From NCBI GenBank assembly GCA_003712055.1, contig RHLJ01000003.1, positions 1 to 64,000 of the forward strand: a DNA stretch of 64,000 bases, written 5' to 3'. Position 1 is the first letter of the stretch. Every line of letters begins with the position of its first letter. The stretch is from Balneola sp. (GTDB lineage Bacteria; Bacteroidota; Rhodothermia; Balneolales; Balneolaceae). Shown here piece after piece: positions 39,798 through 61,166 of this stretch. A program made the position numbers and the translations under genes. The notes beneath the pieces are model-generated. The model did no database searches. It was not told the origin of the DNA and worked only from the letters and a program-made list of their open reading frames with translations.

Positions 39798-41282
39798 ATG
39801 AAACGTTTAATCTTTGTTTCCCTTTTCCTATTTATTTCTGCAACAGAAATTCTGGCCCAAACGGCACCTACTCTCAATATTCAGGGAGTACTTAGAGACG
39901 ACCAAAATATGGCCGTTTCGGATGGCACCTATCAACTGACTTTTAAATTATATGAAGATCAAACAGGTGGAGCCGAAATTTGGGAAGAAGATCAATCTTT
40001 GACCATCACGAATGGAGTATATTCTGCACTTCTTGGGGATGCTACTGATCTCTCTGGTATTGGCTTCAACAGTCAATATTACTTAGGAATTGCTGTTGAT
40101 GGAGGACTCGAACTAGGCCCCAGAATCCCGCTTTCACTAAGTCCCTATTCTATGGCGGTAGTAGGCAGTGAAAATGTATTCCCTTCAACCGGAGCTGTAG
40201 GAATTGGAACTACCTCTCCTGATTCGGAAGCAAAGCTACAGATAGAAGGTGGAGATTTGGTTATTTCCAATGGTGAATTTCATCTATCTGCCAGTAATAT
40301 CAAACTGGATGACAACTGGATTTCTGGTGACGGTGATGATGAAGGGATTTTTGTGAACGCGAATGGAGAAGTGGGTATTGGAACCACAAATATTGAAGAG
40401 GATTTCCAGGTAAATGGAATGTCCCTTTTTGAAGGAGCCACACGATTTGACAAACCGTCTATTCAATCAGGCGGAAACACGTTTGATTATGATATCTGGA
40501 TTCAAGGAGGTGCGGACACACTTGGCGGGGACTCCAGAAACCTTGCTATTCTTGGAGACGAAACAACCGATCAGCTTCATTTAAACTATGCAGGTGAATA
40601 TAAAGGAGGGGTTGAAATTGGAGGAAAGACACATGCGGTAGATGGCTTTATTGCTACCAGAGTACCAACTCATAATAGTGGTTCCAGACTTGGTATTGGA
40701 AGCCATGGAGGCGAAGGGGGAAATGACAATGTTCAGCCTGGTTATAAATTCGTAGATGACAATGACACTGGGTTATTCTCTCATTCCGATGGGGTAATTA
40801 ACTTTTTTAATAATGGTTACGAGACAATATGGATTGACCGATTTGGTATAAAATGCGGGCAAGGTCTAGGTTCATGTGGCCTCGAAAACCAATTTAGTGA
40901 TCGTAGAATCAAGACTGACATACGACCATACTCTTCCTTTGAGGCTTTGGAAAACATTCTGAAATTATCTCCCAAGACGTACCGGTTTAGATTTCTGGAC
41001 GCCGCGCCCGTTTCTCACGGTTTGATTGCTCAAGAAGTCGAAAAAGTGTTACCTCATGCAGTAACCGATTCCGGTAAAAACAAAACTCTAAGCGATGGAA
41101 CTGTCATTGAAAATGTAAAAGAGCTGGATTTCGATGCTATAACGTTGGAGTTAGTTCTGGCAATAAAACAACTCAATGAAAAAGTTGATGCACTCGCCAA
41201 AGAAAATGAAGAATTAAAAAGCCAACTGGCAAACATAAAAGAGAAAGAAACATCCTCACCGGAAAACAAAACAGATAGGTAG
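39798..41282 (+). CDS. secreted protein with S74 auto-processing chaperone domain
   Basis: A 494-residue exported protein (signal about 1-20). The N-terminal part has an all-beta domain of the type found in T9SS substrates and phage tail-like fibres. The middle contains repeats such as GAVGIGTTSPDSEAKLQIEG. The C-terminus is a peptidase S74 intramolecular chaperone domain: QFSDRRIKTDIRPYSSFEAL, with the expected Ser367 and Lys372, and a final coiled coil (LNEKVDALAKENEELKSQLA). S74 domains trimerise and then self-cleave in characterised phage proteins. First gene of the surface-protein group that ends at 48043. Confidence 0.8.
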   Translation: MKRLIFVSLFLFISATEILAQTAPTLNIQGVLRDDQNMAVSDGTYQLTFKLYEDQTGGAEIWEEDQSLTITNGVYSALLGDATDLSGIGFNSQYYLGIAVDGGLELGPRIPLSLSPYSMAVVGSENVFPSTGAVGIGTTSPDSEAKLQIEGGDLVISNGEFHLSASNIKLDDNWISGDGDDEGIFVNANGEVGIGTTNIEEDFQVNGMSLFEGATRFDKPSIQSGGNTFDYDIWIQGGADTLGGDSRNLAILGDETTDQLHLNYAGEYKGGVEIGGKTHAVDGFIATRVPTHNSGSRLGIGSHGGEGGNDNVQPGYKFVDDNDTGLFSHSDGVINFFNNGYETIWIDRFGIKCGQGLGSCGLENQFSDRRIKTDIRPYSSFEALENILKLSPKTYRFRFLDAAPVSHGLIAQEVEKVLPHAVTDSGKNKTLSDGTVIENVKELDFDAITLELVLAIKQLNEKVDALAKENEELKSQLANIKEKETSSPENKTDR

Positions 41283-41304
41283 TCACCATAATTCTGAGGA
41301 TGTC

Positions 41305-44300: not shown

Positions 44301-47300
44301 GGTTTTACCGGATCAACTCTTCAAAAATAATATTTCTTTTAGCGCGGGTGCGCCTTATGAGGCAATTGCTGGATACCAATCTGTATCCAGTATCGAATGG
44401 GAGGATGAGATTGAAATCAAATCCGAGGTTACGGATGATATTATTACAACAGTTGCGGGATCGGGAGAAGGGTTCAAAACCAAGTTAAAAACTACATACT
44501 CGGAAGACTCGGAACGAGAAATAGAGTTTGAAGGTAGTACAGAAACCAGAATAGTCCTTGACGACGCTACTGAAGGTGATGCATTTTCTGTAGATATTGA
44601 AACTGATGTACTGGGTTTTCCACTCTATAAATTAAAGGGTGGGCAGTCTACCAATCCGTGGGAAGAAAATACTTCGAAAAGAGATAACGTGTCTTTAACT
44701 ATGGATTCATATCAGGCTGTGAATGTGCCACCTACTGGGGAAGCGCAATTTACACTTAACATTGGAAATGAAAGCGAAACAGACGAAGAACGGGTATACG
44801 AGGTTCGGTTAATTCCTGAATCAAACCCTGATGGAGCAGTATTAAAAGTAGGAGGTAAAGCACTTCCCGCAACGAACTCATTTACCATACCAGCAGGAGA
44901 AACTGTGCAGGCATCCTTAACCGTTGAACGTGGTCCTGAGGCCTTTGAATACGACAGTTTGATGTTAATGGCTTACGCTCCCGGGCAGTATGATTTATGG
45001 TTATCCACCGAAAACCGACACTTTCTTGATGCTGTAGATACTGTTTTCTTCAATGTTCAGTTTTCAAAAGCTTGCGGAAGTGACGTGGCAATTGCCAATT
45101 TTAATAACTTTGTGATTAATCAGTATGATAGCACAGCTTTCCCGGTTCAGGTGTTCGGGTACAATCCTAATGATCCCGACTTTGATCAGCTTCTTTTAGA
45201 ATATCAACATGCGGGAGAGGACTTCTGGATCATTGCTGATTCAGTGCGCTCTGATAGCATAGGAATCCAGGATTTCTATTTCATGAGTTGGGATTATAAT
45301 GATCTGGCAGATGGAGCATTTAACTTGCGCGTTAAGTCCGTTTGTGTGGATGGAACCGTTAGCGAAAGCAACCACCTGAATGGAATTATCGACCGATCTT
45401 CGCCAACTATTTTTGGAGAGCTAAGCCCAGCGAATAATGGATCCTTAGGTTTTAACCAGGAAATAGCCATCACTTTTAATGAGCGAATTGATACTACAAC
45501 ACTCTTTGTAGATCAGATTCGTCTTTTCAATACAGAAGAAGACCGGGAAATCCCGATGCGATTCAGTACAGATGGATTTACAATAATTCTTACCCCAGAA
45601 GAACAAAACCGATTTATTGAAGGAGTACGCCTCAGAGCTGAAATAGACACTCTTGCAGACATTCATGGAAACTGGATTTCGAGCCCAATCGAATGGGAAT
45701 TTGAAGTAGATCGAAACCCAATTCGATGGAACCAAAAAACTCTAAGTGAAGCTGTGTTCACTGATATTACTACCGTATTCAGCATACCGTTAAGAAATAT
45801 TGGACAGCAAACCAGTTCCTTCACTCTAACCAACATTCCTGACTGGATAAGTGTTACCCCCGTGGAAGGTGAAATTGGAGCCAATGGTAAGGTCGATATC
45901 CAGCTCTCAATAACAGATGAGATAAACTTTGGTCAGTACTTTGATACACTAACCGTCGAAACATCGGAAGGTGATGAACCTCTACAACTGGATATACGTG
46001 CACTCCAGCGTCCTCCTATATGGCAGGTTGAACCTCTCGATTTTGAATATCAAATGTCGGTAGTTGGCGAGGTGGTTCTTAAGGGAACTCCATCATCTGA
46101 TTCTTTTGATATAGTCGCTGCTTTTGTTGATGGAGAATGTAGAGGATTTGCTTCACCTCAACTTGTAGAGGAAACTGGACAATATCTATTGTTCCTGAAT
46201 TTGTATAGCAATGTTCAAAATGGCGAAGAAATAACCTTCCGGTTGTGGGATGCCGAGGACGCTGAAGAGTATTGGGAGCTTAATGACAGCTTCTCTTTTG
46301 AAGCTAATACGGTAATGGGCTCACTTTCTTCACCGATCGAATTTAACTCAGAAGGAGATGTGGCTCAGCATGTTACTTTAAATAAAGGATGGACATGGTT
46401 TACCGAACATCTGACTAACACAGAAGAAAAAAGTCAAATCAATAATGCATTAAGTGGCATCTCTTTTGGTGAAGGCGACCGAATAATCAGTCAGTCGAGG
46501 TTCGAGTCATGGTCTACTTCCGGCAACCGCTGGGTTCCGGGAAAAATGCAGTTCTCATCTTCTGAGACCTACCACATAAATACCGATTCCGCCAAGACTA
46601 TCACCTTTATTGGACAGGAAATTGACCCTGATGCCCAAACTATAACTCTTACTCCTGGTAATACCTGGATCGGCTACCCAATTCGAAGAAATGTCCAAAT
46701 AAATACTGCTCTGGCTAACCTAAATGCAACAGAAGGTTCTGTTATCAGAAATCAAACTCAATTTGCTGAATATCTAGGTGGAAATATAAATCAATGGATT
46801 GGTAGTCTTAATCTGCTGAGAGCTGGAGATGGTTTTATCTATACTTCCACTTCTGACGACACCCTTTCTTTCTCTTATAACACTGGATCGACTAACCAAA
46901 AAATTCATACCAACTCTGAAAATCAGAGCCCAGTTAAAAACCTGCCTGTTACAAAAGGAATAATTTCTTCCCAATACAGCCAGAAAGAAGCCGTAGAATC
47001 CAGACTTAAATGGGAATTAAGTGTATATGAACATCAATACAATATGCCCGTTATTCTTGGTTTTGATGAGATAGAGCTGGATAGTTCGTGGGTTGTAGGT
47101 GCATTTATTAATGATGAGATTGCCGGTATTGGTCGCCTCAATTTGATTCCTTTGGTAGGAGAATACCGAAGTTACTTAATGGTGTACCATTCCATCGCAA
47201 CAGCAGACTCAGTCAGCTTCAAGCTCCTTAATCCAGAGTCTGAAGAAATAATAGGACTCAATAATAAAGTCATCTTCTCGGATACTCATCACACCGGATC

Positions 47301-47619
47301 TTTACTAGCTCCAGTAAGACAGCGGGCGGTTTTAGATTCTGAAATTCCTACTGAGTTTTCTTTGAGCCAGAATTACCCTAATCCATTTAACCCAAGTACT
47401 ACCTTAAATGTAAGTTTGCCTATAAAAGCTCACCTCAGCATTGTCATATACAATATTCTAGGACAAAAAGTAGCAACAATAGCTAATGAAGAGCTCCCGG
47501 CTGGAATACATTACATACAATGGGATACAAGCGCACTTGGATTGTCTTCCGGGGTTTACTTTGCCGAAATGAAGGCGGATAAATTCACCCAAATAAGAAA
47601 AATGACACTCATTAAATAA
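41305..47619 (+). CDS. giant multidomain secreted protein with T9SS sorting signal
   Basis: A 2104-residue protein with signal peptide (about 1-26). Domain order seen: FnIII-like (about 75-165), LamG/concanavalin-like (about 190-385, GRSLSFDGSDDKLDA and GYWRLDEGTGDLAFDLTS), several carboxypeptidase-like beta repeats (about 395-640), a large middle region I do not recognise, an SbsA/Big_5-like domain (about 1370-1465) and a BACON-like segment (about 1475-1570). Two copies of the module also found in the next gene follow (about 1572-1675 and 1895-2005). The C-terminal T9SS type-A sorting domain contains NYPNPFNPSTT. Probably an adhesin or surface-layer protein. Confidence 0.85.
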   Translation: MNTKLFPGIMLFLSLIGSCHLELVAQTYNTGRTTIVNGATGTIKSGEYNSSIVIGEPFVLSTKGLNNSTSTGLWGLQLNSPSSPNISASEGDFSDKVEITWQLESLSPAPGKGYHVFRDGNLLARLSFSDTSYTDSNVKAGVFYFYTITAINNFGESVLGNTTGFVNPNGVITGTIETSKKRPVSDVEVSLSPVVGRSLSFDGSDDKLDAVSSEVSTLNSLIDTSFTFSMWVNPSSTGTDRMLGGGQFQDVSGESYPFALYTSGDKFAASLTTSFGEQLLTGTTTFITSQWYHVVLTYSTSKGVQLLVDGNIEADASTNGSLEEFISFLIGEDINSTSGLARWDGLIDEIRLWDIHRDTTSIQTDKDRTISGKTENLIGYWRLDEGTGDLAFDLTSQKIKLNIEGASFSTTHATLPASAITDSLGNYEIEGIFYDTGTTFDVTPTKALHTFTPSLRNATLSTSNTGVNNVDFEDDSQISVEGFVKFSGTECFEQEVEILVNGNSTIPKTFTDSNGEFTLEFEPGTSVTIGPSKNDHPFSPINYVIENINEPLAGVEFKDNDLVDLSIHFAGGACRYPIGKATVTVRTLDGCFSQTFETDASGFAVLRNIPSNKYEVILTPEDPNITFDGIEIDLSAGSDTVEFIYRAPLEAEIELLTNTRHVNDIPVLRMAAEGQDTTLFKMILREEYKNSTTGALNYCYIDSGTVKIDDKIALKETNRTITFKNPDITRKDSMPVYKMIVGRPNFLDGGERPYQKELQITGKDVDGREATGEFWAYVQGHQTVGNSFITTAPNRPLFVLRDPPGDKSFSEITKEYTLTYANSFEVKLAEDREFETVEVGGIDEIEGEGVLIETLEQVRDENQVGSKTTYGVDLKSRKTITFEEVLKTDESAESADGKHDIIAGAAHNYRYGVVQSLRVNDDGSVEISKRLGIEPDGFQTFYYYTVGFIEEVLIPNLKQTPDFNVNVDIQKEVENWERHLEFHNQLTSQNFLGLLNIPQVLPDQLFKNNISFSAGAPYEAIAGYQSVSSIEWEDEIEIKSEVTDDIITTVAGSGEGFKTKLKTTYSEDSEREIEFEGSTETRIVLDDATEGDAFSVDIETDVLGFPLYKLKGGQSTNPWEENTSKRDNVSLTMDSYQAVNVPPTGEAQFTLNIGNESETDEERVYEVRLIPESNPDGAVLKVGGKALPATNSFTIPAGETVQASLTVERGPEAFEYDSLMLMAYAPGQYDLWLSTENRHFLDAVDTVFFNVQFSKACGSDVAIANFNNFVINQYDSTAFPVQVFGYNPNDPDFDQLLLEYQHAGEDFWIIADSVRSDSIGIQDFYFMSWDYNDLADGAFNLRVKSVCVDGTVSESNHLNGIIDRSSPTIFGELSPANNGSLGFNQEIAITFNERIDTTTLFVDQIRLFNTEEDREIPMRFSTDGFTIILTPEEQNRFIEGVRLRAEIDTLADIHGNWISSPIEWEFEVDRNPIRWNQKTLSEAVFTDITTVFSIPLRNIGQQTSSFTLTNIPDWISVTPVEGEIGANGKVDIQLSITDEINFGQYFDTLTVETSEGDEPLQLDIRALQRPPIWQVEPLDFEYQMSVVGEVVLKGTPSSDSFDIVAAFVDGECRGFASPQLVEETGQYLLFLNLYSNVQNGEEITFRLWDAEDAEEYWELNDSFSFEANTVMGSLSSPIEFNSEGDVAQHVTLNKGWTWFTEHLTNTEEKSQINNALSGISFGEGDRIISQSRFESWSTSGNRWVPGKMQFSSSETYHINTDSAKTITFIGQEIDPDAQTITLTPGNTWIGYPIRRNVQINTALANLNATEGSVIRNQTQFAEYLGGNINQWIGSLNLLRAGDGFIYTSTSDDTLSFSYNTGSTNQKIHTNSENQSPVKNLPVTKGIISSQYSQKEAVESRLKWELSVYEHQYNMPVILGFDEIELDSSWVVGAFINDEIAGIGRLNLIPLVGEYRSYLMVYHSIATADSVSFKLLNPESEEIIGLNNKVIFSDTHHTGSLLAPVRQRAVLDSEIPTEFSLSQNYPNPFNPSTTLNVSLPIKAHLSIVIYNILGQKVATIANEELPAGIHYIQWDTSALGLSSGVYFAEMKADKFTQIRKMTLIK

Positions 47620-50899: not shown

Positions 50900-51112
50900 T
50901 ATGAATTCGGGATAAGAAGCTTATGAAACTTCACCGTTTCTTAGTCATTCCCGAGGAGGCGGGAATCTAGATTTAGCTTTTACAAGCAGAACTTACTTTT
51001 GATCTGAATCCAAATTCCGGCTTTCGCCCGCCTTCCAAAGTCTCATACGGAGGGAAGGCTGCGGAATGACGCATTCTGGCGTTTAAAGAGCCTCGTTTCC
51101 TGGACTTCTATT
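50900..51112. other. intergenic region containing a repeat element
   Basis: Contains the MITE-like element described separately and no reading frame of useful length. The left part (50900-50943) and right part (51071-51112) show nothing recognisable. Confidence 0.5.
50944..51070. repeat. MITE/REP-like palindromic element
   Basis: Ends are inverted: GTCATTCC (50944-50951) and GGAATGAC (51063-51070). Inside are hairpins ATTCCCG/CGGGAAT near the left end and ATTCCG/CGGAAT with GCCTTCC/GGGAAGGC at the right. This resembles the CATTCCCG palindromic intergenic repeats of many bacteria. No transposase is encoded nearby. Confidence 0.55.
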
Positions 51113-51150
51113 AAAACAAAAAGTAGGCTTCCCAGTCAGAGAATACCTAC
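51113..51150 (-). terminator. terminator after the DUF4249-like gene
   Basis: On the minus strand GTAGGT/GCCTAC with an inner TTCTC/GGGAA stem (51123-51150) is followed by TTTTTGTTTT. It would end the TonB-receptor/lipoprotein transcript. Confidence 0.7.
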
Positions 51151-51178
51151 ATAGCTATAGGAAATTATCCCTAAAAAA

Positions 51179-51997
51179 TTAGCCCTTCTCTATGCTAAAA
51201 ATCAGTGTATCACTACTAAACGAAGTGAATATTCCCAATCCGTTTTCAACATTTGAAGGAGGCTCTGATAAATTCCTGGAATCCTGATCTCCCGATTCAT
51301 ACAGATCCACATATTCCTGATTTACATGATATAGAACCACCTGATATCTCCCGTAATGGGTTAGCGTAAATGGGATCACATTGAATACATCCAGATTGGT
51401 GGGCTCTATTTCAAAACTCAAATTTCGTTCGTTATCTCCAAAATCGATAGTAACTATCTCCTCGGGATCGCTCTCTATATTCTCTACTCTGGCGAAATAG
51501 TAGTTTCCTTCCGGGTTATCCCAATAGATTTCAATGTTTGGTATTTCTGTTCGCTCAAATAAATCCTGGAGTTCATTGATTTGTTCAATTTCAATTCTTG
51601 GATCAGATACCGATAAACCCTGTGGTTTCTCTGGTACCGTTGTGCTTGAAACTATTCGCTCCCCGAAATATTCAAAGGAAAGTACGTATGTATTTCCATC
51701 TATAATTTGAAGGTCGTTGCCTTCGTAAAGATAGGCACCTGATTCATTACCATCAGGGCTAAGTAAATAACTCGTATCATTCCATTCGATAAGAACATTT
51801 GCATCATTGATGGAAAAATCTTCCTCCTCTTCAGAAATAAATGGAATAAGTCGGCTTATATGTATTGAATTGACCGGGTTTCCTGAATAGATAAATCCTT
51901 CTACCACCACTTCTTCAGTAACTGATAGATTTACCGTCCCATCAGAACACGAAGTCAGGGTAATCATGGCAGCAATTAAGAGTGCTCTTGATTTCAT
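51179..51997 (-). CDS. DUF4249-like lipoprotein
   Basis: A 272-residue lipoprotein (lipobox LTSC, Cys17). The domain order and motifs (NAILVEWNDT-like NANVLIEWNDTSYLLS, LQIIDGNTYVLSFEYFGERI, TTVPEKPQGLSV) fit the DUF4249 family, which in Bacteroidota is usually encoded next to a TonB-dependent receptor. It sits 5 nt after the receptor gene, so it is probably a periplasmic or outer-membrane accessory. Substrate unknown. Confidence 0.8.
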   Translation of the reverse strand: MKSRALLIAAMITLTSCSDGTVNLSVTEEVVVEGFIYSGNPVNSIHISRLIPFISEEEEDFSINDANVLIEWNDTSYLLSPDGNESGAYLYEGNDLQIIDGNTYVLSFEYFGERIVSSTTVPEKPQGLSVSDPRIEIEQINELQDLFERTEIPNIEIYWDNPEGNYYFARVENIESDPEEIVTIDFGDNERNLSFEIEPTNLDVFNVIPFTLTHYGRYQVVLYHVNQEYVDLYESGDQDSRNLSEPPSNVENGLGIFTSFSSDTLIFSIEKG

Positions 51998-52002
51998 TAT
52001 GC

Positions 52003-54717
52003 TTAAAACTTGATGTTGAAAAATATGTTTGGGGTAAAACCAATGGTGTTTACATCGGTTGTAATCAGATCACCTTCGATGACTTCAAACTTCTTGTACC
52101 AGGTATTGGTATTGTTGTAAGCATTGAAGATGGATAGTCCTACTTCAGCCCATACCCCGGAACCCCAATCCCATCCATAGGTTCCGGAAAGATCTAGTCG
52201 GTGATAATCTGCTAACCGATATGCATTTTTATCCCCTACTGACACATAGGTGTTGGTTACTCCATCAAGAAGCGTAATTTCATACCCGCCAGTTGGGCTT
52301 GTATAAGGCTTTCCAGTTGCATATACCCATGTTCCTGACAGGTTGAAATCTCCCAGACGAAGGCTGTTTACTAATTTAAACTCATGCGTTTGGTCATGAA
52401 GCGCCGGGTAAGGATCTTCGGATAAATCGGGAAATTCATGAATGGTCTCACTCAAAGTGTACCCCAACCAACCAGTATATTTGCCAAACTTTTTCTGAGC
52501 AAGAAATTCAATCCCTCTTGAATAGCCTGTTCCTTCATAAAAGAATTCATCCAGTTGAGTAGTCCTGGAATTCAAGAAGCCAGAGTTTGTAAACCTTAAT
52601 GTGTACTCAGAAAGACCTGTCATGTCTTTGTGATATCCTTCGATATCGAACAAAAAACCAGCCGTTTCATAAGATATCCCCGCTATATAATGGGTAGCCG
52701 AGCTAACCGGGTTAAGCTCATCATTAGCTAACAGCCAAAAATCCCTGCTTCCCTGAGACACATCCTCACGAACTACTCTTGTAACGAATTGATTGAAGTA
52801 GCCCCACGCCCCTTTAAGGGTTAAGGAAGGGGTGACCTTAAAAGAAAAGGAAGCGCGAGGCTCAACATAGGTATCATTCGTTTCGCTGTACTGATTGATT
52901 CTAACCCCATAATTCAAGGTCAATCGGTCAAAGAGTTTCCAGCTGTCCTGGATATATCCGGCCAGTACAGATCCTTTGTCATTCCTATCTAGTACTACCG
53001 AGGTATCATTTCTGATTTGGGTGTAATCAACATTGTTATAAGTGTACTGAAGACCAAAGGATATAGTATGATTTTGATTGAGCTGAAAATCATTATCGTT
53101 CTTGAAAGTAAAATCAATCACATTATTGTCTTCAAGAGTACCATCCCGAACTTCAAAAGTAGAGTCAGCTCGAGTTATTTCGTTGGTGGTAAATAAATCC
53201 CGATTTGTAAAGTATTTTGAGTAGGACAGCACAGAGTTAGAATACAATCTATTGTTCCATTGACGTCCCCAACGAAGACTTGAACCTACATTACCCCAAT
53301 CATTGATGTCTTTGGTATCATTTGTAAAACCAAAGTTTGATTCGCTCCCACCTCCTCCGAATACTCCACTAAACTGACTACTATTAAAATCACTCGAGTT
53401 GTCCAGTTTATCCTGCCCGTTATAGAAGGAAAAGGAAAGGATATCGCTATTACTAGGTCTATATGTAGCTTTTGCGTTTAAATCATAAAAGTAAAAAGCA
53501 GGTTCTGTTTCAGTAGCTCCGAATCGGGCTTGCGGACCAACATTACCCTGATCACTATCTGATTCCTCTTCGAACAACCCAAAAATGTTGTTATAAATCC
53601 CGCTTTGTACAATATCGGTGTAGGATCTACGTGCTGATAAAAACATGGATCCTTTTCCATCGGCAAAGGGCAATTCTAATGATCCATTGGCACTTAGGGC
53701 ACTAATCCCAAAGTTTCCTGAAGCATTTTTTGTGTTCCCATTCTTTCCTGTCAGTACTGCTACGCTTGATAACCTTCCGCCATATTTGGGTTCAAACCCT
53801 CCTTTATAGAATTGTATATCCTTAACTGCATTAGAATTGAATGCACTGAAAAAACCATAAAAGTGATCCACGTGATAAACAGTAAAGCCATCAAATAAAA
53901 TGAGGTTTTGATCGGGAGTACCGCCCCTAACAAAAAGTCCGGAAGAGGTTTCGTTAGTAGCACTTATACCTGGAAGCATCTGGAGAGATCGGAAGATGTC
54001 CTTTTCCCCGAGACTAGGTAGAGAAGAAAGTTGAGCAGGAGAAATTGACACTGAACTTACCCCATTTGAAGCTTTGATCATATGTTCTTTTTGATCTGTA
54101 ACTACAATTTCTTCCAATTCTTCTGTAAACTGCTCAAGCTCGATGGTTATGAAATTTCCATCAATACTTTCTGGTAGCAACTGAAGTGTGAGCGTTTTAT
54201 ACCCAATGTATTGCGCCACAATGATGGAGGTATCACTTGGTGTGTTGAAAAGAGTGAAAAATCCATCAACATTTGAACTAGTACCTTTTTCAGTATCAGG
54301 TAAATATACCGTGGCATAGGGAAGTGTTTCTCCTGAACTTTGATCTATTATTTTGCCTTCAAGAGTGAAATTAACCCTTGTTGGATCGGGAGTTTTCTTA
54401 AGTCTCACTCCCTTTTTTCTAATTTTTACCGTTTTTCCTTCTACAAGAAAATCCACTTCAAATTCTTTTAAAAGAGCTTCGAATACTCGTTCAAGGGGTC
54501 GATTTGAAAATGAAACTCCAAGGACTTTTACATTTGAAACTACCTCTGATTCAAAATCGATTGTAATACCATAACGCTCTTCCAATGCTTCAAAAATGGA
54601 ATACAAATCTTGATTAAGGTATGTACCATTTACTAAAATTTCGGAATTGTCTTGAGCAATTAATGCCGTAGTTGAAACGATATAGATGAATAGTGAAAAA
54701 AGTGCTTTTCTGGGCAT
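52003..54717 (-). CDS. TonB-dependent receptor with N-terminal STN domain
   Basis: A 904-residue outer-membrane transporter. Signal peptide about 1-22; STN/secretin-like domain about 25-105; carboxypeptidase-like domain about 115-205 (GKIIDQSSGETLPYATVYLP); plug about 210-320 (EIVVTDQKEH, LFVRGGTPDQNLILFDGFTV); beta barrel to the end (FFNIKF). STN domains often indicate signalling to an anti-sigma factor, but none is seen here; the divergent LytS/LytTR pair is the neighbouring candidate regulator. Transported substrate unknown. Followed by a DUF4249-type partner. Confidence 0.9.
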   Translation of the reverse strand: MPRKALFSLFIYIVSTTALIAQDNSEILVNGTYLNQDLYSIFEALEERYGITIDFESEVVSNVKVLGVSFSNRPLERVFEALLKEFEVDFLVEGKTVKIRKKGVRLKKTPDPTRVNFTLEGKIIDQSSGETLPYATVYLPDTEKGTSSNVDGFFTLFNTPSDTSIIVAQYIGYKTLTLQLLPESIDGNFITIELEQFTEELEEIVVTDQKEHMIKASNGVSSVSISPAQLSSLPSLGEKDIFRSLQMLPGISATNETSSGLFVRGGTPDQNLILFDGFTVYHVDHFYGFFSAFNSNAVKDIQFYKGGFEPKYGGRLSSVAVLTGKNGNTKNASGNFGISALSANGSLELPFADGKGSMFLSARRSYTDIVQSGIYNNIFGLFEEESDSDQGNVGPQARFGATETEPAFYFYDLNAKATYRPSNSDILSFSFYNGQDKLDNSSDFNSSQFSGVFGGGGSESNFGFTNDTKDINDWGNVGSSLRWGRQWNNRLYSNSVLSYSKYFTNRDLFTTNEITRADSTFEVRDGTLEDNNVIDFTFKNDNDFQLNQNHTISFGLQYTYNNVDYTQIRNDTSVVLDRNDKGSVLAGYIQDSWKLFDRLTLNYGVRINQYSETNDTYVEPRASFSFKVTPSLTLKGAWGYFNQFVTRVVREDVSQGSRDFWLLANDELNPVSSATHYIAGISYETAGFLFDIEGYHKDMTGLSEYTLRFTNSGFLNSRTTQLDEFFYEGTGYSRGIEFLAQKKFGKYTGWLGYTLSETIHEFPDLSEDPYPALHDQTHEFKLVNSLRLGDFNLSGTWVYATGKPYTSPTGGYEITLLDGVTNTYVSVGDKNAYRLADYHRLDLSGTYGWDWGSGVWAEVGLSIFNAYNNTNTWYKKFEVIEGDLITTDVNTIGFTPNIFFNIKF

Positions 54718-54885
54718 GACCTATTTTTTATTGCCCAAAACTCAGCATAATCACTCTATCTGGAAAAATTATTCAACCAATGAAAGGAAAAAATCTATGA
54801 GTACCTTTGATTACCTAAATGATCTCTTTGGTTGAACTTTTTGAGTTATTGATTGAAAAAATGATCTCTTTTAAAAAACCCCCTG

Positions 54886-54893
54886 TATTTTTG
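54886..54893 (+). promoter_or_regulatory. TAnnTTTG -7 box upstream of the LytS-like kinase
   Basis: TATTTTTG fits the Bacteroidota -7 consensus and lies 22 nt before the kinase ATG. No matching TTG is found at the expected -33 distance, so it may be a weak or partial promoter. Confidence 0.3.
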
Positions 54894-54914
54894 AGATGAA
54901 TTGAAAAAGGGAAA

Positions 54915-55967
54915 ATGGATTTTATAAGAAAATACTTACTGCATTTTTTGTTGTGGAGCATTTACTTCACATTATTCTTTTTTGTAGCTAATGAGCAATT
55001 TACTCTAATCAATGCGTTGCTAGTTGCGAGTATCATTACTTTTGTTCATGCTTCCATTTTTTATGTCAATTACACCTACCTCATTCCATCTCTTTATTTC
55101 AGAGGTAAGAATCTGCTTTATCTTTTTTCGGTAGTAATTGTTCTTTGCACTTTTGTTTTTATTGGAGCTGTAGCTCTTGAAGGGCTCATTCAACCACAGC
55201 CTGTGCCCCTTTTTATGATGAATAACCCTAACGATTTTAGTTCAGTTGAACCTCCCATTTTTCTTAGGCTCATTCCCATCTCGGTCCCTGCTATTATGCT
55301 ATTAATGGTATCCTTCATCCTTAAAAAAACAGAGCATTCTCAATTAGTTGAACAGGAATTGGAACAACTCAAGACACAAAACTTTGAGACTGAACTCAAG
55401 TTTCTAAGGTCACAGATCAACCCACATTTTCTTTTTAACTCCCTAAATAATATTTATTCACTATCAGTTACAAAATCTGAGAAAACCCCGGATATGTTAG
55501 TGAAACTAAGCAGCATGCTTAGATACCTTATTTATGAATGCAATGTCGATAAAGTCTCCCTCGAGAAAGAGATCGAGTATATTAGCAATTATATCGAGCT
55601 TCAAAAATTAAAGGATGACCAGATATCGAATATTCATTTTAATCATCAGGGAAATAATGCAGAAATAAGCCCCATGCTGCTCATGCCTTTTGTCGAAAAT
55701 GCTTTTAAGCATAGTAAAATCGAAGACACTGACAAAAGCTGGATTGACATTTCTCTTGAAGTAAAGGAATCTGGGAAACTTTGCTTTAAAGTTGAAAACA
55801 GCATTCCGCCTATACCCACAACAAAAGACGAAACCGGAGGTGTGGGAATTGCTAACGTGAAGAAGCGGCTTCAGCTACTTTATCCTGAACGTCACTCTAT
55901 CAATTTTTTTGAAGATATTTATCAATACAAGATCGAACTTAGCATTGAGTTGAATGGAACCCATTAG
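54915..55967 (+). CDS. LytS-like histidine kinase
   Basis: A 350-residue membrane sensor kinase of the His_kinase (PF06580-type) family. About four N-terminal hydrophobic segments, then a coiled coil and the kinase motif RSQINPHFLFNSLNNIYSL with phospho-acceptor His171. The ATPase part is short (PFVENAFKHSK, ETGGVGIANVKKRLQLLYPE). No extracytoplasmic domain is evident, so it may sense the membrane. It overlaps the next gene by 14 nt. Confidence 0.9.
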   Translation: MDFIRKYLLHFLLWSIYFTLFFFVANEQFTLINALLVASIITFVHASIFYVNYTYLIPSLYFRGKNLLYLFSVVIVLCTFVFIGAVALEGLIQPQPVPLFMMNNPNDFSSVEPPIFLRLIPISVPAIMLLMVSFILKKTEHSQLVEQELEQLKTQNFETELKFLRSQINPHFLFNSLNNIYSLSVTKSEKTPDMLVKLSSMLRYLIYECNVDKVSLEKEIEYISNYIELQKLKDDQISNIHFNHQGNNAEISPMLLMPFVENAFKHSKIEDTDKSWIDISLEVKESGKLCFKVENSIPPIPTTKDETGGVGIANVKKRLQLLYPERHSINFFEDIYQYKIELSIELNGTH

Positions 55968-56649
55968 ATGTGCAATTGTAGATGATGAGCAACCAGCTAG
56001 GGAGCTCCTAAAAAACTTTTCTAAAAGGGTAGAAGGGCTATCTGTGATTGGTACTTTTAAAAGTCCACTGGCAGTATTCCCGTTGATAAACAGTAATGAA
56101 ATAGACCTGCTGTTTCTTGATATCCAGATGCCAGATATAAAAGGAACTGATTTTCTAAAATCAATCAAAAACGGACCCAAGGTCATCTTTACAACCGCTT
56201 ATCCTGATTACGCCTTAGAAGGATACGATCTAAATGTGACCGATTATTTATTGAAACCCTTTAGCTTTGAACGTTTCCTGCAGGCCATTGAAAAAGTCCA
56301 TAGACTTATTTTTCCCAGAGTCGAATCCGTCACAAATTCAAAAAATCATCTTTCCATTTCTTCTAATCATCGAATATATAGACTAAAATTCTCTGATATA
56401 CTTTTAATAGAGGGACTGAAGGAATATGTCTCGTTCTACACCAAGCAAGGGCAACGCATTATCTCTTTACAAAGTCTCAAGGCACTAGAGAAAGAACTCC
56501 CTTCCAATGCTTTTCTGCGTACTCATAGATCATATATCGTTCAAATTGACGCCATTCGATTTTTAGAAGGCAATATTATTCACCTTGAAGATAGAGAAAT
56601 CCCGATTGGAGTAAGTTATAAACAACAAGTACTGGAAGCTCTGAAATAG
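55954..56649 (+). CDS. LytTR-type response regulator
   Basis: A 231-residue regulator with receiver domain (acidic VDDEQPAREL, phospho-acceptor Asp56 in LLFLDIQMPD, Lys in LLKPFSFERF) and a C-terminal LytTR DNA-binding domain (about 125-231, IEGLKEYVSFYTKQGQRIIS, LRTHRSYIVQIDAI, IPIGVSYKQQVLEAL). It overlaps the kinase gene. LytTR proteins bind pairs of short direct repeats. A role controlling the divergent TonB-receptor operon is plausible. Confidence 0.92.
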   Translation: MEPIRCAIVDDEQPARELLKNFSKRVEGLSVIGTFKSPLAVFPLINSNEIDLLFLDIQMPDIKGTDFLKSIKNGPKVIFTTAYPDYALEGYDLNVTDYLLKPFSFERFLQAIEKVHRLIFPRVESVTNSKNHLSISSNHRIYRLKFSDILLIEGLKEYVSFYTKQGQRIISLQSLKALEKELPSNAFLRTHRSYIVQIDAIRFLEGNIIHLEDREIPIGVSYKQQVLEALK

Positions 56650-56685
56650 ATGTTTATCAATTAGTTGCTCTTGCAAGATTACCTT

Positions 56686-56759
56686 ACCAACCGAGCGCTC
56701 GCTCTACCATGCCTTGACGAAGTAGAGCGGAGAGGGAGAGATTCGAACCCTCCTTAAGT
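56686..56759. repeat. left copy of the island-flanking direct repeat
   Basis: ACCAACCGAGC ... GCTCTAC-N14-GTAGAGCGGAGAGGGA ... ATTCGAACCCTC ... TTAAGT matches 61038-61109 in the same orientation, with a few substitutions and a two-base length difference. It includes the 3' end of a serine tRNA. Putative attachment-site copy. Confidence 0.6.
56701..56728. repeat. hairpin repeat GCTCTAC/GTAGAGC (copy 1)
   Basis: GCTCTAC (56701-56707) pairs with GTAGAGC (56722-56728) around a CATGCCTTGACGAA loop, immediately 3' of the tRNA remnant on the minus strand. The same hairpin follows the intact tRNA at 61051-61078. Confidence 0.55.
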
Positions 56760-56773
56760 CCGCTTAAACTCCA
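56728..56773 (-). pseudogene. 3' remnant of a tRNA-Ser gene
   Basis: The minus strand reads GGAGTTTAAGCGGACTTAAG then GAGGGTTCGAATCTCTC and CCTCTCC. This is a class II variable arm (TTAAG/CTTAA with loop CGGA), a complete T-arm (one G-U pair) and the 3' acceptor strand of a serine tRNA. The 5' acceptor strand, D-arm and anticodon are missing; the upstream sequence is instead the end of the lyase gene. The variable arm differs from that of the intact tRNA at 61078 while still pairing. Confidence 0.7.
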
Positions 56774-56796
56774 GCTGTCTGTTCATGATTAAGCCA

Positions 56797-58422
56797 TCAC
56801 TCTTCTAGCAAATTTTCAACTAAAGCCGCTAACTCCTGACCGCGAACCAGGTCAATCAATGCTTCGATGTCTTCCCGAAGAAAACGATCTTCCATAACCA
56901 TCTCAATATGACTGCGAATCAAGGTGTGTATTGCCTCAGTTTTCGGTGACATTTTCATCGGGTGCATACGATCTCGAATAAGGTCAATGGCTTGTGCAGC
57001 AAGCATTAACTCAATGGCCAATACTTGCTCGCACATATCCAGGTTTAACTGCAAATCATACAAAGAACTATTACCCATGCTATTGTGGTCTTCTTGCATG
57101 CTTTTTCCTGATAGGGAATGGATGCTTGCTGGCGTAGCTTGCTGACGCATTTGCCCAATAATAGAGAGTTGGAGAGACTGAACTTGTACCATACCAGAGT
57201 TGAGCCCAGGCTGACCGCCGGCCAGGTTGGCGGGGAGTCCATAGCTAGCTTGAGGTGAAATCAGTCGTGCGGAACGTGACTCAGAAAGACCAGCTACATC
57301 AGTAAGGACAATATTGAGGTAATCTAAAAGGTGCGCCATATGAGAACCATCGTAATTTCCACCCATTACAACATCAAAGCAATCTGGTTGCTCTATATTC
57401 CGAAAGACAAGTGGATTCATAGACGCGGCATTGATCTCTCGGTTCATCGCATCGGACACGAAGCTATAGGTCTCCCGTAACGACCCATAAATATGCGGTG
57501 TTGAGCGGAGGCTAACTGCATCCTGTATACGTGGGTTAACTTCACCAAGACGTGCACGTCCTTCATCTGTTGTCCACTCGCTACCTTTTAGAAGAGTGCG
57601 TGCTGTATGTGCCGAAATAATCTGACCAGGTATATCACGCGATTCATGAATACGGTAGTCTAATGCACCTATTTCACCGCGGAGAGCCTCCATGGTCAGG
57701 GCGAAACAAGCCTCCATCACATAAAGAAGATGTTTTATCCGGTAAAGCGAATAAACCGCACCCGCTGCTAATACGGTGCTACCGCTAATAATCGAAAGGG
57801 CCTCCTCTATCTCCAAAGTAAATAATGGATCAACTCCTGCTCTCGCGAGTATGTCTGGCGCGGAACCAATATCGCCGTTGTATTTGGCCACACCATGCGG
57901 ACTACCTGCCATTACTAGTCCGAGTGCGGCCATTGGTTGCAGGTCACCACTACCCAGAGATCCCTCCCATGGCATAATGGGAATCACACCAGCATTCAAC
58001 AAATCCAAGTAACGTTGGATCAAATCTATACGGATACCAAACGAACCACTGCTAGCAACATTGGCCCTAAGTAGCAGGGCAATTCGAGAAATCTGATCGC
58101 AAAAGGGTTGACCTATGCCCGTCGCATGAGATTCCAGTATCCTCATTTGAAAGTCGATCTGTTCTTCACTCACTAATACCTTGTCTTTTAAGGGACCCAA
58201 TCCTCTTGTCAATCCGTAAATAGGTCGCCCTTCTGCTAACCATTTTCGAACCTGATCGTTAGAGGCCTTAACATTCCCCGCTGCTTCAGGTTCAAGTTTA
58301 ACCTCGCAAGATTCAGCCGCTAAAAAACGGAAAACGTCCTCTACCTGAAGCGACTTTCCATCTAACATGAAAGAGAAGGTCTCGCGATTGACCGAGTCGT
58401 TTTTATAAGGTGAATTCGCCAT
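56797..58422 (-). CDS. divergent MIO-type ammonia-lyase / aminomutase homologue
   Basis: A 541-residue protein of the histidine/phenylalanine/tyrosine ammonia-lyase superfamily. Kept motifs: Tyr69 in IYGLTRGLGPL, Ser98-His99 in ESHATGIG (as in histidine lyases), VSLRSTPHIYG with Arg306, GGNYDGSHMA, and SMQEDHNSMG. Unusual: the MIO-forming Ala-Ser-Gly loop is one residue shorter and reads Gly157-Ser158-Gly159 (EGSLGSGDLQPMA). The conserved Asn of INGT is Ser213 (IISGST), and the Tyr of DxYSLR is Val303. It may be catalytically altered, an aminomutase, or a lyase of unusual chemistry. Arg codons of the CGN type are frequent. Divergent from the next gene. Confidence 0.85.
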   Translation of the reverse strand: MANSPYKNDSVNRETFSFMLDGKSLQVEDVFRFLAAESCEVKLEPEAAGNVKASNDQVRKWLAEGRPIYGLTRGLGPLKDKVLVSEEQIDFQMRILESHATGIGQPFCDQISRIALLLRANVASSGSFGIRIDLIQRYLDLLNAGVIPIMPWEGSLGSGDLQPMAALGLVMAGSPHGVAKYNGDIGSAPDILARAGVDPLFTLEIEEALSIISGSTVLAAGAVYSLYRIKHLLYVMEACFALTMEALRGEIGALDYRIHESRDIPGQIISAHTARTLLKGSEWTTDEGRARLGEVNPRIQDAVSLRSTPHIYGSLRETYSFVSDAMNREINAASMNPLVFRNIEQPDCFDVVMGGNYDGSHMAHLLDYLNIVLTDVAGLSESRSARLISPQASYGLPANLAGGQPGLNSGMVQVQSLQLSIIGQMRQQATPASIHSLSGKSMQEDHNSMGNSSLYDLQLNLDMCEQVLAIELMLAAQAIDLIRDRMHPMKMSPKTEAIHTLIRSHIEMVMEDRFLREDIEALIDLVRGQELAALVENLLEE

Positions 58423-58510
58423 TTTTTTTGTGCTTCAAGAGTTTGGACTAGCAGTCTAAGTTATATTTTATATTTTACAATCTACGGACAGAGATAATTT
58501 TAAAAAAGAT

Positions 58511-58516
58511 AGGAGC
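58511..58516 (+). promoter_or_regulatory. ribosome binding site of the adenylating enzyme
   Basis: TAGGAG about 9 nt upstream of ATG 58525 is a clear Shine-Dalgarno sequence, stronger than those of most surrounding genes. The 58423-58510 gap contains divergent AT-rich sequence with no definite promoter. Confidence 0.5.
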
Positions 58517-58524
58517 CAACTAAA

Positions 58525-59616
58525 ATGATCACTGAAATTTTAGATCAACGAATTGGATCTGAAGTTAAAGAAAAAGACTTCATCGCAGCTGCAATGAGCT
58601 GGCATTTCAATCCGAATACTGGCTCACCCTATTGGGTTGAAAGAAGTAAAATATTGGGTTTTGACCCTCAGAAAGAAATAAAGACCTTCGCAGATCTACA
58701 GAAGTTTCCAAATGTAGTAGATGAGATGCGAAAAGTACCGGTTCAAAACCTTATCCCTGTGGGCTATGGCCCGAAACCCCCTGTTTTCGGTGTATTTGAC
58801 TCCGGTGGTACTACCGGAATCCCTAAGCGCGTCGTAGTTCTCGAAGATTGGGTGAACCTTCAACTTAGTTGGCAAGATGAAAAGGTCGCGGCTCATGGAA
58901 TTCTACCAGGCAAAAATATTTGTTACGTCGGTCCTTCGGGGCCTCATATGTTTGGTGCTTATACTGCGGAAAGGGCACGGAGAACCCGAGGCTTGAATTT
59001 CCCAATAGATCTGGATCCCCGTTGGGTGAAACGTAGCTTAGAAGCTGGACACAAGGAAGAGGTTGAGCGGTATGTTCGTCACCTTGTTGAGCAAGCAAGT
59101 ACTATTTTAGAGACTCAGGATATAGGGCTCCTAATCACAACACCACCTTTACTTGAGCGCATGGCTCGCGAAGATAAACTGGTTGATTTAATAAATGAAA
59201 AAGTAACCGGTATTCAATGGGGTGGTGCGCACATGGATGCCGATACACGCGAGCTTTACCGTAATAAGGTTTTTCCAGAGGTCTCCCTGGTTGGTAACTA
59301 TGGCAGTGCTATGATGCTTGGCGGAGTGATCGAGCGACCCGAGAAGCGTAATGACGACCTTTGTGTATTCGATCCTCTCTCTCCCTTCGTAACCTTCAAG
59401 GTTGTTCATCCTGATACTCACGAAGAAGTACCCTATGGCGAACGAGGTCAGTTGTTAATGCATCATATTAGTAGAAATATGTTTTTGCCTAATAATCTCG
59501 AGAGAGATATGGGAACAAGAGTTGAAGCCCTTTCGGGACACTTAGGTGATGCTGTTGCGGATGTTTATCCAGTTCAAACATTTGAGGGAAAGACAGTAAT
59601 CGAAGGAGTCTATTAA
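58525..59616 (+). CDS. EhpF/LuxE-like adenylate-forming enzyme without C-terminal domain
   Basis: A 363-residue member of the ANL (acyl-AMP-forming) superfamily. It has the phosphate-binding loop DSGGTTGIPK (Ser93-Gly98), QWGGAHMDAD, GNYGSAMML (258-264, the A5-type region) and a PYGERGQLLMHH strand. It lacks the ~100-residue C-terminal domain with the catalytic lysine, so thioester formation is unlikely. This is the architecture of EhpF, the atypical phenazine-pathway adenylating enzyme, and close to LuxE in length. It is 2 nt upstream of the LuxC-like gene, so the two are almost certainly co-translated. Predicted to activate a carboxylate as an adenylate. Confidence 0.85.
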   Translation: MITEILDQRIGSEVKEKDFIAAAMSWHFNPNTGSPYWVERSKILGFDPQKEIKTFADLQKFPNVVDEMRKVPVQNLIPVGYGPKPPVFGVFDSGGTTGIPKRVVVLEDWVNLQLSWQDEKVAAHGILPGKNICYVGPSGPHMFGAYTAERARRTRGLNFPIDLDPRWVKRSLEAGHKEEVERYVRHLVEQASTILETQDIGLLITTPPLLERMAREDKLVDLINEKVTGIQWGGAHMDADTRELYRNKVFPEVSLVGNYGSAMMLGGVIERPEKRNDDLCVFDPLSPFVTFKVVHPDTHEEVPYGERGQLLMHHISRNMFLPNNLERDMGTRVEALSGHLGDAVADVYPVQTFEGKTVIEGVY

Positions 59617-59618
59617 TT

Positions 59619-60992
59619 ATGCCATCTCCTGATACTCTCATCCCGATTGACTCCATTGGCCCAAGTGGTTCCTACCGAACTCGCCGTCATACCATAGTCA
59701 AGGATGTTCGTGGCGTGCCTACTCTTCGCCTGAGCTTAATTCCTCGTCTATTCTTATGGCGCAGTATCTCAGCGATGCATAAAGCAGCACCGAAATCAGT
59801 GGAAAAAAGAGCTGAAATATTGGCGAAAGCGGGAGAAATATTTTCCACTGAATCTATCGATGGCATGTCTCCAGACACCTACCAACGCATGGTGAGCCGT
59901 ATCTGCGGTTTACCTCTATATATGGCCCGTAAATCAACGGAAATAATAGCCGAATCTGCAATCAAAGCATATCAAACATCGGCATTTGCCCGTCCATTAG
60001 CTGCTGTCGACGATTGGAGAGCGCCCCAAACTTTAGATGGAGGAGCTGTGTGGGTTCGCAGAGGTAACATATTTGGTGTTCTTGCTTCAGGAAACACACC
60101 TAGTGTTCACTCACTTTGGCTTGAAGCATTGGCACTCGGGTATAAAGTAGTAGTTCGCCCTTCCCAACGCGAGCCACTAACTCCTTACCGATTAATTCGA
60201 GCTCTGCATATGGCAGGTTTTGACACTGATCAAATCATGTTTCTACCGACGAACCATGCAGAAGCTGAAGATATCGTCGAGGCATCCGATTTGTCTATAG
60301 TATATGGCGGTGATGCCATGGTTCAAAAATACCATAATCGCCCCACCGTACTAACTGAGGGCCCGGGACGATCCAAAATTCTTATCACGGAAGATGCCTG
60401 GCAAGAAAGCATGGATATGATCATCGAATCCGTTGCTGGAAAAGGCGCAACTAACTGTATTAATACCACGGCTATATTTGTCGAAGGCGACCCGGCTCCA
60501 TTTGCAAAGGCTCTTGCCGACCGCTTAGCAAAAATGCCGAGCCACCCGCCAGATCATGATAAAGCGATTTTACCTGTACAGCAGCTGGATCAGGCATTAG
60601 CACTAGAAAATCTATTGCATCAACGTGCGCTTGGAACAAAGCCTATATTAAATGAAGTGGTTCATGATCTTGGAGACGGAGCTGCTGTCTTACGCCCAGC
60701 AGTCTTTCTTCTTAATGATCCAAACGCATCGCAAACAAGAGTTGAATTGCCCTTTCCTTGCGTATGGGTTGCACCTTGGTCAAAGGACTATGGAATACCT
60801 CCACTAAAAGATACCTTAGTTTTAACAGCGATTACTCGAGATGAAGAACTTATAGACAGTTTGCTCAATGAACCATCCATACTTAACCTTTATCTAGGAA
60901 ATACACCAACTACTTTCCTGGAACCGGGTATTCCACATGATTCATATTTAGGTGAATTCCTGATGCGAACTAAAGGAGTAGCTCGGAATTGA
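59619..60992 (+). CDS. EhpG/LuxC-like aldehyde-forming reductase
   Basis: A 457-residue protein of the LuxC acyl-CoA reductase / aldehyde dehydrogenase superfamily. Cofactor-binding segments are LASGNTPSVHSLWLEALALG (about 155-174) and VVVRPSQREPLTPYRL. The catalytic cysteine is Cys280 in GKGATNCINTTAIFVEG. LuxC reduces a fatty acyl thioester with NADPH; EhpG is proposed to accept an acyl-adenylate product from EhpF. No luxA, luxB or luxD is present, so light production is not implied. Likely product is an aldehyde of unknown identity. Confidence 0.85.
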   Translation: MPSPDTLIPIDSIGPSGSYRTRRHTIVKDVRGVPTLRLSLIPRLFLWRSISAMHKAAPKSVEKRAEILAKAGEIFSTESIDGMSPDTYQRMVSRICGLPLYMARKSTEIIAESAIKAYQTSAFARPLAAVDDWRAPQTLDGGAVWVRRGNIFGVLASGNTPSVHSLWLEALALGYKVVVRPSQREPLTPYRLIRALHMAGFDTDQIMFLPTNHAEAEDIVEASDLSIVYGGDAMVQKYHNRPTVLTEGPGRSKILITEDAWQESMDMIIESVAGKGATNCINTTAIFVEGDPAPFAKALADRLAKMPSHPPDHDKAILPVQQLDQALALENLLHQRALGTKPILNEVVHDLGDGAAVLRPAVFLLNDPNASQTRVELPFPCVWVAPWSKDYGIPPLKDTLVLTAITRDEELIDSLLNEPSILNLYLGNTPTTFLEPGIPHDSYLGEFLMRTKGVARN

Positions 60993-61037
60993 AAGGAAGA
61001 TTTTAATAGTAATCTGAGCTACTACAAAAATTGCTAG

Positions 61038-61109
61038 ACCAACCGAGCCTGCTCTACGAAGCCTTGGCGAAGTAGAGCGGAGAGGGAGGGATTCGAACCC
61101 TCGTTAAGT
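61038..61109. repeat. right copy of the island-flanking direct repeat
   Basis: Same orientation as 56686-56759. The shared segments are ACCAACCGAGC, GCTCTAC-N14-GTAGAGCGGAGAGGGA, ATTCGAACCCTC and TTAAGT. It lies over the 3' end of the intact tRNA-Ser and the sequence just downstream of it. Confidence 0.6.
61051..61078. repeat. hairpin repeat GCTCTAC/GTAGAGC (copy 2)
   Basis: GCTCTAC (61051-61057) pairs with GTAGAGC (61072-61078) around GAAGCCTTGGCGAA; the last base is the tRNA discriminator position. It may assist 3' processing of the tRNA or terminate the adjacent LuxC-like transcript, or simply be an interspersed repeat. Confidence 0.55.
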
Positions 61110-61166
61110 GTTTCCACCTAAACTCCCTTAGCAGGGGAGCGCTTTCAGCCACTCAGCCACCTCTCC
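61078..61166 (-). tRNA. tRNA-Ser(GCT)
   Basis: An 89-nt class II tRNA on the minus strand. Acceptor GGAGAGG/CCTCTCC, D-arm GCTGAGTGGCTGAAAGC, anticodon stem-loop CTCCC-CTGCTAA-GGGAG with anticodon GCT (serine, AGC/AGU codons), long variable arm and T-arm GAGGG-TTCGAAT-CCCTC. CCA is not encoded. Intact copy at the right side of the island. Confidence 0.95.

Follow-up and report, generated by a model that had tools for sequence, protein, structure and literature searches.

Three adjacent genes of Balneola sp. very probably form one functional unit. The best explanation of them, to which we give an even chance as a whole, is a horizontally acquired metabolic cassette with the 3' end of a tRNA-Ser(GCT) gene as its insertion site; in this cassette, an acid made by a lyase lacking the MIO group would be adenylated by an EhpF-like enzyme and reduced to an aldehyde by an EhpG-like enzyme. 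The window analyzed here is a stretch of 64,000 nucleotides (positions 1–64,000, forward strand) of contig RHLJ01000003.1 from assembly GCA_003712055.1.

Gene layout and tRNA-Ser insertion site

The trio comprises the lyase homologue on the minus strand followed by the EhpF-like and EhpG-like pair on the plus strand, and is flanked by a tRNA-Ser repeat on one side and the intact tRNA-Ser(GCT) on the other (Table 1). The lyase stop codon (56797–56799) directly adjoins the distal att-like repeat, and the EhpG-like ORF begins 2 nt past the stop codon of the EhpF-like ORF. This is the layout given in a preliminary description of the locus, and it is confirmed by the ORFs and the repeat. The tRNA-Ser 3' remnant reported there is also real: positions 56701–56759 and 61051–61109 form a direct repeat of 59 nt with 92% identity and a spacing of 4350 nt. 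The aligned stretch begins in the 3' strand of the anticodon stem, includes the 3' end of the tRNA, and ends ~40 nt beyond it. Because the repeat covers the 3' part of the tRNA and its downstream flank, it matches the expectation for att-like repeats and, with the intact tRNA-Ser(GCT), bears out the proposed insertion at a tRNA. The GC content of the trio is 0.45–0.47 as compared with 0.36–0.40 for neighboring genes. No integrase was recognized among the genes examined, and the search for a shared promoter in the 102-nt intergenic region gave a single weak sigma-70-like match that was not above chance.

Table 1. Features of the tRNA-flanked locus, in window coordinates
Feature	Position	Strand	Basis
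Degenerate 3' part of tRNA-Ser with its downstream hairpin; att-like direct repeat	56686..56796	-	Distal island end; repeat alignment
PF00221 lyase homologue, 541 aa	56797..58422	-	ORF, profile match
Divergent intergenic region, 102 nt; presumed shared promoter region	58423..58524		ORF positions
EhpF/GriC-like adenylating enzyme, 363 aa, lacking a C-terminal domain	58525..59616	+	ORF, homology
EhpG/GriD-like NAD(P)H-dependent acyl reductase, aldehyde-dehydrogenase fold, 457 aa, Cys280	59619..60992	+	ORF, homology, predicted fold
Hairpin and flank 3' of tRNA; extra-tRNA portion of att-like repeat	61027..61076	-	Repeat alignment
Intact tRNA-Ser(GCT), presumed insertion site	61077..61166	-	tRNA detection

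The lyase homologue and its MIO loop

In a profile search the lyase homologue matches PF00221 over residues 25–503 (E 1.3e-126), and its best database scores are with histidases. As in HutH (PDB 1gkj, 6v6h), the histidase-type pocket motifs, an SH dyad and a QEDH motif, are present, and the pocket residues Y69 (Y53), H99 (H83), Q300 (Q277), R306 (R283), and E444 (E414) are kept (histidase counterparts in parentheses). It is unlike HutH in its short MIO loop, in the replacement of the catalytic positions N195 and Y280 by S213 and V303, and in its score against the HutH profile, which at 377 bits is well below the cut-off of 539 bits. A further position is changed from F329 to Y357. The MIO-forming loop reads E153-GSLG-SGDLQP as compared with the standard GSVGASGDL and is thus one residue short, a detail that the preliminary description overlooked. 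Ser158, Gly159, and the following Asp are still present, and neither the lyase nor any other member of its clade has a loop of normal length with the Ala-Ser-Gly (or Cys/Thr-Ser-Gly) tripeptide.

That clade, which has 100% support, consists of the window lyase and its three nearest relatives, and all four members have the loop deletion together with the N195S and Y280V replacements. Two of them, from Nonomuraea (L006) and Embleya (L007), are 45% identical to the window lyase; they differ from it in having Thr where the MIO Ser would be, in their apparent signal peptides, and in the absence of EhpF and EhpG genes within 10 kb. In a separate clade (L157 and L159), encoded beside betaine/amine transporters, the loop has been lost independently, and Y280 is also lost. 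In histidase, activity or expression is lost when N195 or Y280 is mutated (PMC11432326). Since the loop is one residue short and both positions are changed clade-wide, ordinary MIO chemistry is doubtful and an MIO-free elimination is likelier. Judged from its sequence, the protein is probably a family member that lacks MIO and has a pocket resembling that of histidase, and not an ordinary ammonia-lyase; it is likely to work without MIO, probably by a chemistry different from that of the MIO enzymes. Ergothionase (ergothioneine trimethylamine-lyase, PDB 6s7j), another PF00221 protein, is reported to lack MIO (PMC13405746) and provides a precedent. The two are compared by score and by this reported absence and have no special sequence closeness (174 bits versus 236 bits for ordinary histidases); in the ergothionase-type comparison the window loop is shortened, yet its Ser and Gly remain.

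The preliminary description took the lyase to be an MIO-family enzyme with an amino acid as the substrate for deamination or rearrangement. In that model, an MIO-like group would still be built from Gly157-Ser158-Gly159, the enzyme would be an ammonia-lyase or aminomutase acting on histidine or an aromatic amino acid, and the pair would reduce the resulting acrylate or β-amino acid. The retained loop residues, the five kept pocket positions, the histidase-type SH dyad, and the top scores with histidases are consistent with this. However, a loop that is short in the entire clade, the replacement of two positions whose mutation kills histidase activity or expression (PMC11432326), the Thr in L006 and L007, and the presence in the host of an ordinary ASG histidase (L131) besides the window lyase all argue against it, and we consider it unlikely. 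No description of a Gly-Ser-Gly MIO was found in the literature searched. A structure prediction for the lyase from a two-sequence alignment reached a pLDDT of 36, and the model was discarded. No relative of the lyase was found in viral contigs under the patterns used, and phages gave merely ordinary homologues with 33% identity.

The EhpF/EhpG-like pair and the proposed pathway

The EhpF-like protein can be aligned with EhpF (PDB 3hgu/3l2k; E ~3e-78) up to the final EhpF residue, so the absence of a C-terminal domain is a family trait; it comprises the ANL N-terminal domain alone, with 363 residues as compared with ~366 for the family. The profile matches of the reductase are to Aldedh (47 bits) and, marginally, to LuxC (21.8 bits, cut-off 21). 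Its AlphaFold2 model (pLDDT 92) has an ALDH fold (Z 37.1 over 431 residues), and Cys280 is invariant across 37 sequences. The full-length EhpF alignment and the closely adjoining EhpG partner gene support the earlier assignment of the pair to EhpF/EhpG, and homology makes the conversion of a carboxylate to an aldehyde its likely function. A LuxC/LuxE-type fatty-acid reductase was considered and rejected, as the LuxC match is marginal, EhpF is by far the best match of the EhpF-like protein, and relatives belong to aromatic pathways. Nothing was found under "arylcarboxylate reductase" in the literature searched.

EhpF and EhpG of the D-alanylgriseoluteic acid (phenazine) system likewise combine an adenylating enzyme that lacks the C-terminal domain with an ALDH/LuxC-like reductase, and the EhpF-like proteins of phenazine clusters are 38–47% identical to that of the window. 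Unlike that system, the window pair is partnered with a lyase homologue and has no phenazine genes nearby, and its EhpF-like protein forms, with the homologue from metagenome-assembled genome G411, a fully supported branch of its own. A phenazine context was rejected, there being no phz gene beside the trio; 29 other loci of the family hold a PhzE-like gene. By description, GriC and GriD of grixazone biosynthesis follow the same two-protein route, in which 3-amino-4-hydroxybenzoate is first converted to its acyl-AMP and subsequently to the corresponding aldehyde (PMC10179220); they differ in this substrate and in having no lyase.

The proposed pathway has three steps. (i) The MIO-less lyase would eliminate a leaving group better than ammonia, for example trimethylamine from a histidine betaine such as hercynine or ergothioneine, leaving urocanate, thiourocanate, or a similar unsaturated acid. 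(ii) The EhpF-like enzyme, by homology to EhpF and GriC, would turn the acid into an acyl-adenylate. (iii) The EhpG-like enzyme, by homology to EhpG and GriD, its fold, and Cys280, would bind the acyl group through Cys280 and form the aldehyde by NAD(P)H-dependent reduction. The product of the cassette is probably an aldehyde from a small acid, and the acid is most likely unsaturated and perhaps of the imidazole type. The more specific readings are tentative: a betaine or imidazole substrate for the lyase has a rather low probability, and a mobile pathway from a betaine (e.g. hercynine or ergothioneine) to imidazole acrolein through the lyase and the pair a slightly lower one. We know of no earlier description of such a route and of no case in which ergothionase is paired with a carboxylate reductase. 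Both the host and G411 have a gene for an EgtD-like hercynine synthase; as it is also found in same-genus genomes without the cassette, it gives no pointer to hercynine. No betaine transporter was recognized near the trio.

The lyase pocket might instead carry out another reaction, such as an addition or isomerization, or act on the acid, adenylate, or aldehyde of the pair, with EhpF/EhpG acting first or sharing an intermediate. This arrangement would suit the divergent layout of the trio, the loss of an electrophile on which amino acid substrates depend, and the use of such pairs in many pathways whose upstream genes are unrelated. Retention of the carboxylate-binding Arg and of the base Tyr, however, is in keeping with an acid as the substrate and with abstraction of a proton, and we regard the arrangement as improbable, to the same degree as a retained MIO.

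Conservation of the trio and its significance

All three genes occur in the same divergent layout in G411, a high-GC bacterial genome and the single further one in which the trio was found, with identities of 69% (lyase), 69% (EhpF), and 63% (EhpG). Its lyase (L025) and EhpF genes lie divergently on one contig; a second contig opens with the end of EhpF, followed by the EhpG gene, and continues in frame with a 4-nt overlap. The neighbors there, a membrane transporter and an SNF2 helicase, are unrelated to the flanks in the window. The same trio and layout in an independent genome indicate that the three genes work together, as the preliminary description had supposed. The three proteins have diverged alike (dN 0.26, 0.24, and 0.28) with synonymous sites near saturation, and all three are therefore constrained.

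Of the 80 top-ranking EhpF-type loci, 78 include the EhpG gene; outside the trio-bearing genomes, these loci lack the lyase. The preliminary description would have been refuted if each gene were found on its own beside unrelated genes, and for the trio this is not the case: the pair is widespread without the lyase, but the closest relatives of this pair and of this lyase occur together. An unlinked lyase in pair-bearing actinobacteria was also considered and rejected, the lyase-family matches in 18 of 23 genomes all being at most 35% identical. The tRNA-flanked, GC-shifted insert and the usual occurrence of the pair without the lyase would suit a tRNA-borne island whose genes have nothing to do with each other, or a lyase that is a decaying pseudo-enzyme. 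This reading is very improbable, since G411 has the same trio amid unrelated flanks, all three genes are under strong purifying constraint, and the lyase changes are clade-fixed rather than random.

To our knowledge, a lyase of this type has not previously been found paired with EhpF/EhpG. A clade of the ammonia-lyase family appears to have dropped the catalytic group that defines the family, with the remaining pocket kept. If this is true, the clade would provide a testable case of family function without MIO and a caution against hutH as a name for such genes, and, with the cassette, a compact mobile pathway for making an unsaturated aldehyde would be added.

Layout of the locus at tRNA-Ser

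The trio of genes, encoding a lyase homologue (541 aa, PF00221), an EhpF-like adenylating enzyme (363 aa), and an EhpG-like reductase (457 aa), is bounded on one side by an intact tRNA-Ser and on the other by an att-like tRNA-Ser remnant, an arrangement noted in the preliminary description and confirmed here by the ORFs, the tRNA, and the repeat. The repeat is 59 nt long with 92% identity; its alignment starts at the anticodon stem, on the 3' side of the tRNA, and runs on for ∼40 nt downstream of the tRNA. The trio genes have a GC content of 0.45–0.47, higher than that of their neighbors (0.36–0.39). No integrase was recognized among the window ORFs scanned.

Features of the tRNA-Ser locus in the window
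Feature	Position	Strand and arrangement
Lyase homologue	56797-58422	minus
EhpF-like adenylating enzyme	58525-59616	plus, divergent from lyase
EhpG-like reductase	59619-60992	plus
Intact tRNA-Ser(GCT)	61077-61166	bounds trio on one side

Where the trio is absent in the host's family, tRNA-Ser(GCT) adjoins a hypoxanthine phosphoribosyltransferase gene. In genome G046 (locus L121), DNA-alkylation-repair-like genes that match the window at 49.6–50.9 kb start ∼1.4 kb past the tRNA, whereas ∼10 kb separate the two in the window. The window locus has therefore gained DNA, and the trio is the portion of it beside the tRNA. The segment that separates the trio from the DNA-alkylation-repair-like genes (50900-56650), which by reading comprises a DUF4249 gene, a TonB-dependent-receptor-like gene, a sensor kinase, and a LytTR regulator, is likewise missing beside tRNA-Ser in G046, so that the inserted DNA may extend beyond the island described. 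Elsewhere, the window has a gene with a Peptidase_S74 domain and, after it, one encoding a 2104-aa protein that contains Laminin_G_3 and secretion C-terminal sorting domains (39798-47619), and a 942-aa ORF with no Pfam match at E 1e-5 (25767-28595).

Occurrence of the trio in other genomes

The trio is rare. EhpF was found in 1 of 394 genomes sampled in the host's phylum; in the host's order, 1 genome of 129 had the lyase. The lyase was absent from 396 genomes in the phylum of Sphaerisporangium and from 398 in that of Burkholderia, bar two 35% homologues in a single genome; in 23 genomes that carry the EhpF/EhpG pair, actinobacterial and other, lyase-family genes are at most 35% identical. When 84,980 species were scanned with an EhpF profile and the best 80 loci were kept, EhpG lay inside the locus in 78 and the lyase in one, L025, from a bacterial metagenome-assembled genome (G411) that is also the sole carrier among 294 genomes of its phylum.

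L025 has the lyase and EhpF in the divergent layout of the window, each 69% identical to its counterpart (EhpF over the part present). The contig stops within EhpF; a second G411 contig, overlapping it by 4 nt, opens in frame with the remainder, followed by EhpG at 63%. The flanking genes, a membrane transporter and an SNF2 helicase, do not match those of the window, and the GC content of L025 (0.67) shows that the two hosts are very different. This independent genome supports the three-gene unit, whose co-occurrence elsewhere had been proposed as a check. The dN values between window and G411 are similar for the three proteins (0.26, 0.24, and 0.28) and synonymous sites are near-saturated, a pattern of divergence that marks the trio as an old and constrained unit.

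The EhpF/EhpG pair

The best, and almost sole, PDB match of the EhpF-like protein is EhpF, aligned through the last residue. Other family members lie in phenazine clusters (Burkholderia, E. coli, and Pantoea) or, in Streptomyces, in clusters of other kinds; in a quick tree, the window and G411 proteins form a separate, fully supported branch. An AlphaFold2 model of the EhpG-like protein (35 sequences; pLDDT 92, pTM 0.90) has an aldehyde dehydrogenase fold (Foldseek TM ∼0.8; VIA Z 37.1, rmsd 2.8 over 431 residues, 14% identity). The 37 sequences compared all have Cys280. In grixazone biosynthesis, GriC/GriD are described as converting 3-amino-4-hydroxybenzoate to an acyl-AMP and then to the aldehyde (PMC10179220, citing Suzuki 2007). 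From these likenesses, the pair is predicted to turn some carboxylate into an aldehyde.

Among other loci, the pair adjoins a luciferase-like monooxygenase gene (PF00296) in Planosporangium (L010:10001-13341); in Frankia, Pseudofrankia, and Sphaerimonospora (L011, L012, L013, L017, and L020), it lies among ABC-ATPase or SHMT genes without a PhzE-like gene. On an E. coli plasmid (L003, NZ_CP076707.1), EhpF/EhpG homologues belong to a phenazine-type cluster, and a gene annotated clbA lies close by.

Active site and possible chemistry of the lyase

The window lyase belongs to PF00221 beyond doubt but scores far under the cut-off of each named enzyme. Its MIO-forming loop is one residue short (GSLG-SGDLQP versus GSVGASGDLAP in an alignment with >20 homologues), and the same gap appears in an independent HMMER alignment with P. 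putida histidase. In histidase numbering, N195, Y280, and F329 are replaced (by Ser213, Val303, and Tyr357), and Y53, H83, Q277, R283, and E414 are retained. Thus, the protein has lost residues tied to MIO and retained those tied to binding and proton abstraction, which looks like altered chemistry rather than decay. The loop deletion, Ser at N195, and Val at Y280 are common to the G411 lyase and two secreted-looking actinobacterial relatives (L006 and L007; 45% identity to the window lyase) in which Thr replaces the MIO serine; the four form one clade with 100% support. These two genes (L006:9863-11590, Nonomuraea; L007:9737-11557, Embleya) stand alone; their products have apparent signal peptides, and the shortened loop reads Gly-Thr-Gly.

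A precedent is ergothionase, a PF00221 enzyme that frees trimethylamine from ergothioneine and is reported to lack MIO (PMC13405746). Plasmid genes named hutH in Agrobacterium, Aminobacter, and Rhizobium (L157:5019-6512, L158:3016-4509, and L159:3019-4512) have a loop three residues short and Leu at Y280, and form a fully supported branch apart from the window clade. Those of L157 and L159 lie directly 3' of ABC transporter genes of glycine betaine or amine type. The three are probably not histidases and are candidate betaine lyases. A Rhizobium leguminosarum "histidine ammonia-lyase" in a different operon (L160:2980-4485), with AAD replacing ASG and Leu at Y280, is possibly a further MIO-less member. 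Since the loop-deleted branches are separate, MIO was probably lost more than once, with Y280 lost every time.

A betaine substrate for the window lyase is a weak proposition because the protein is no closer to ergothionase than to histidase and hosts have an EgtD-like gene whether or not they carry the trio. The SH and QEDH motifs of the lyase, which are of histidase type, suggest an imidazole-like substrate. The MIO-family mechanism first ascribed to this lyase is doubtful, given the loop deletion and the replacement of N195 and Y280; with ergothionase and repeated MIO loss as precedents, the most economical reading is that the enzyme would catalyze an elimination without MIO.
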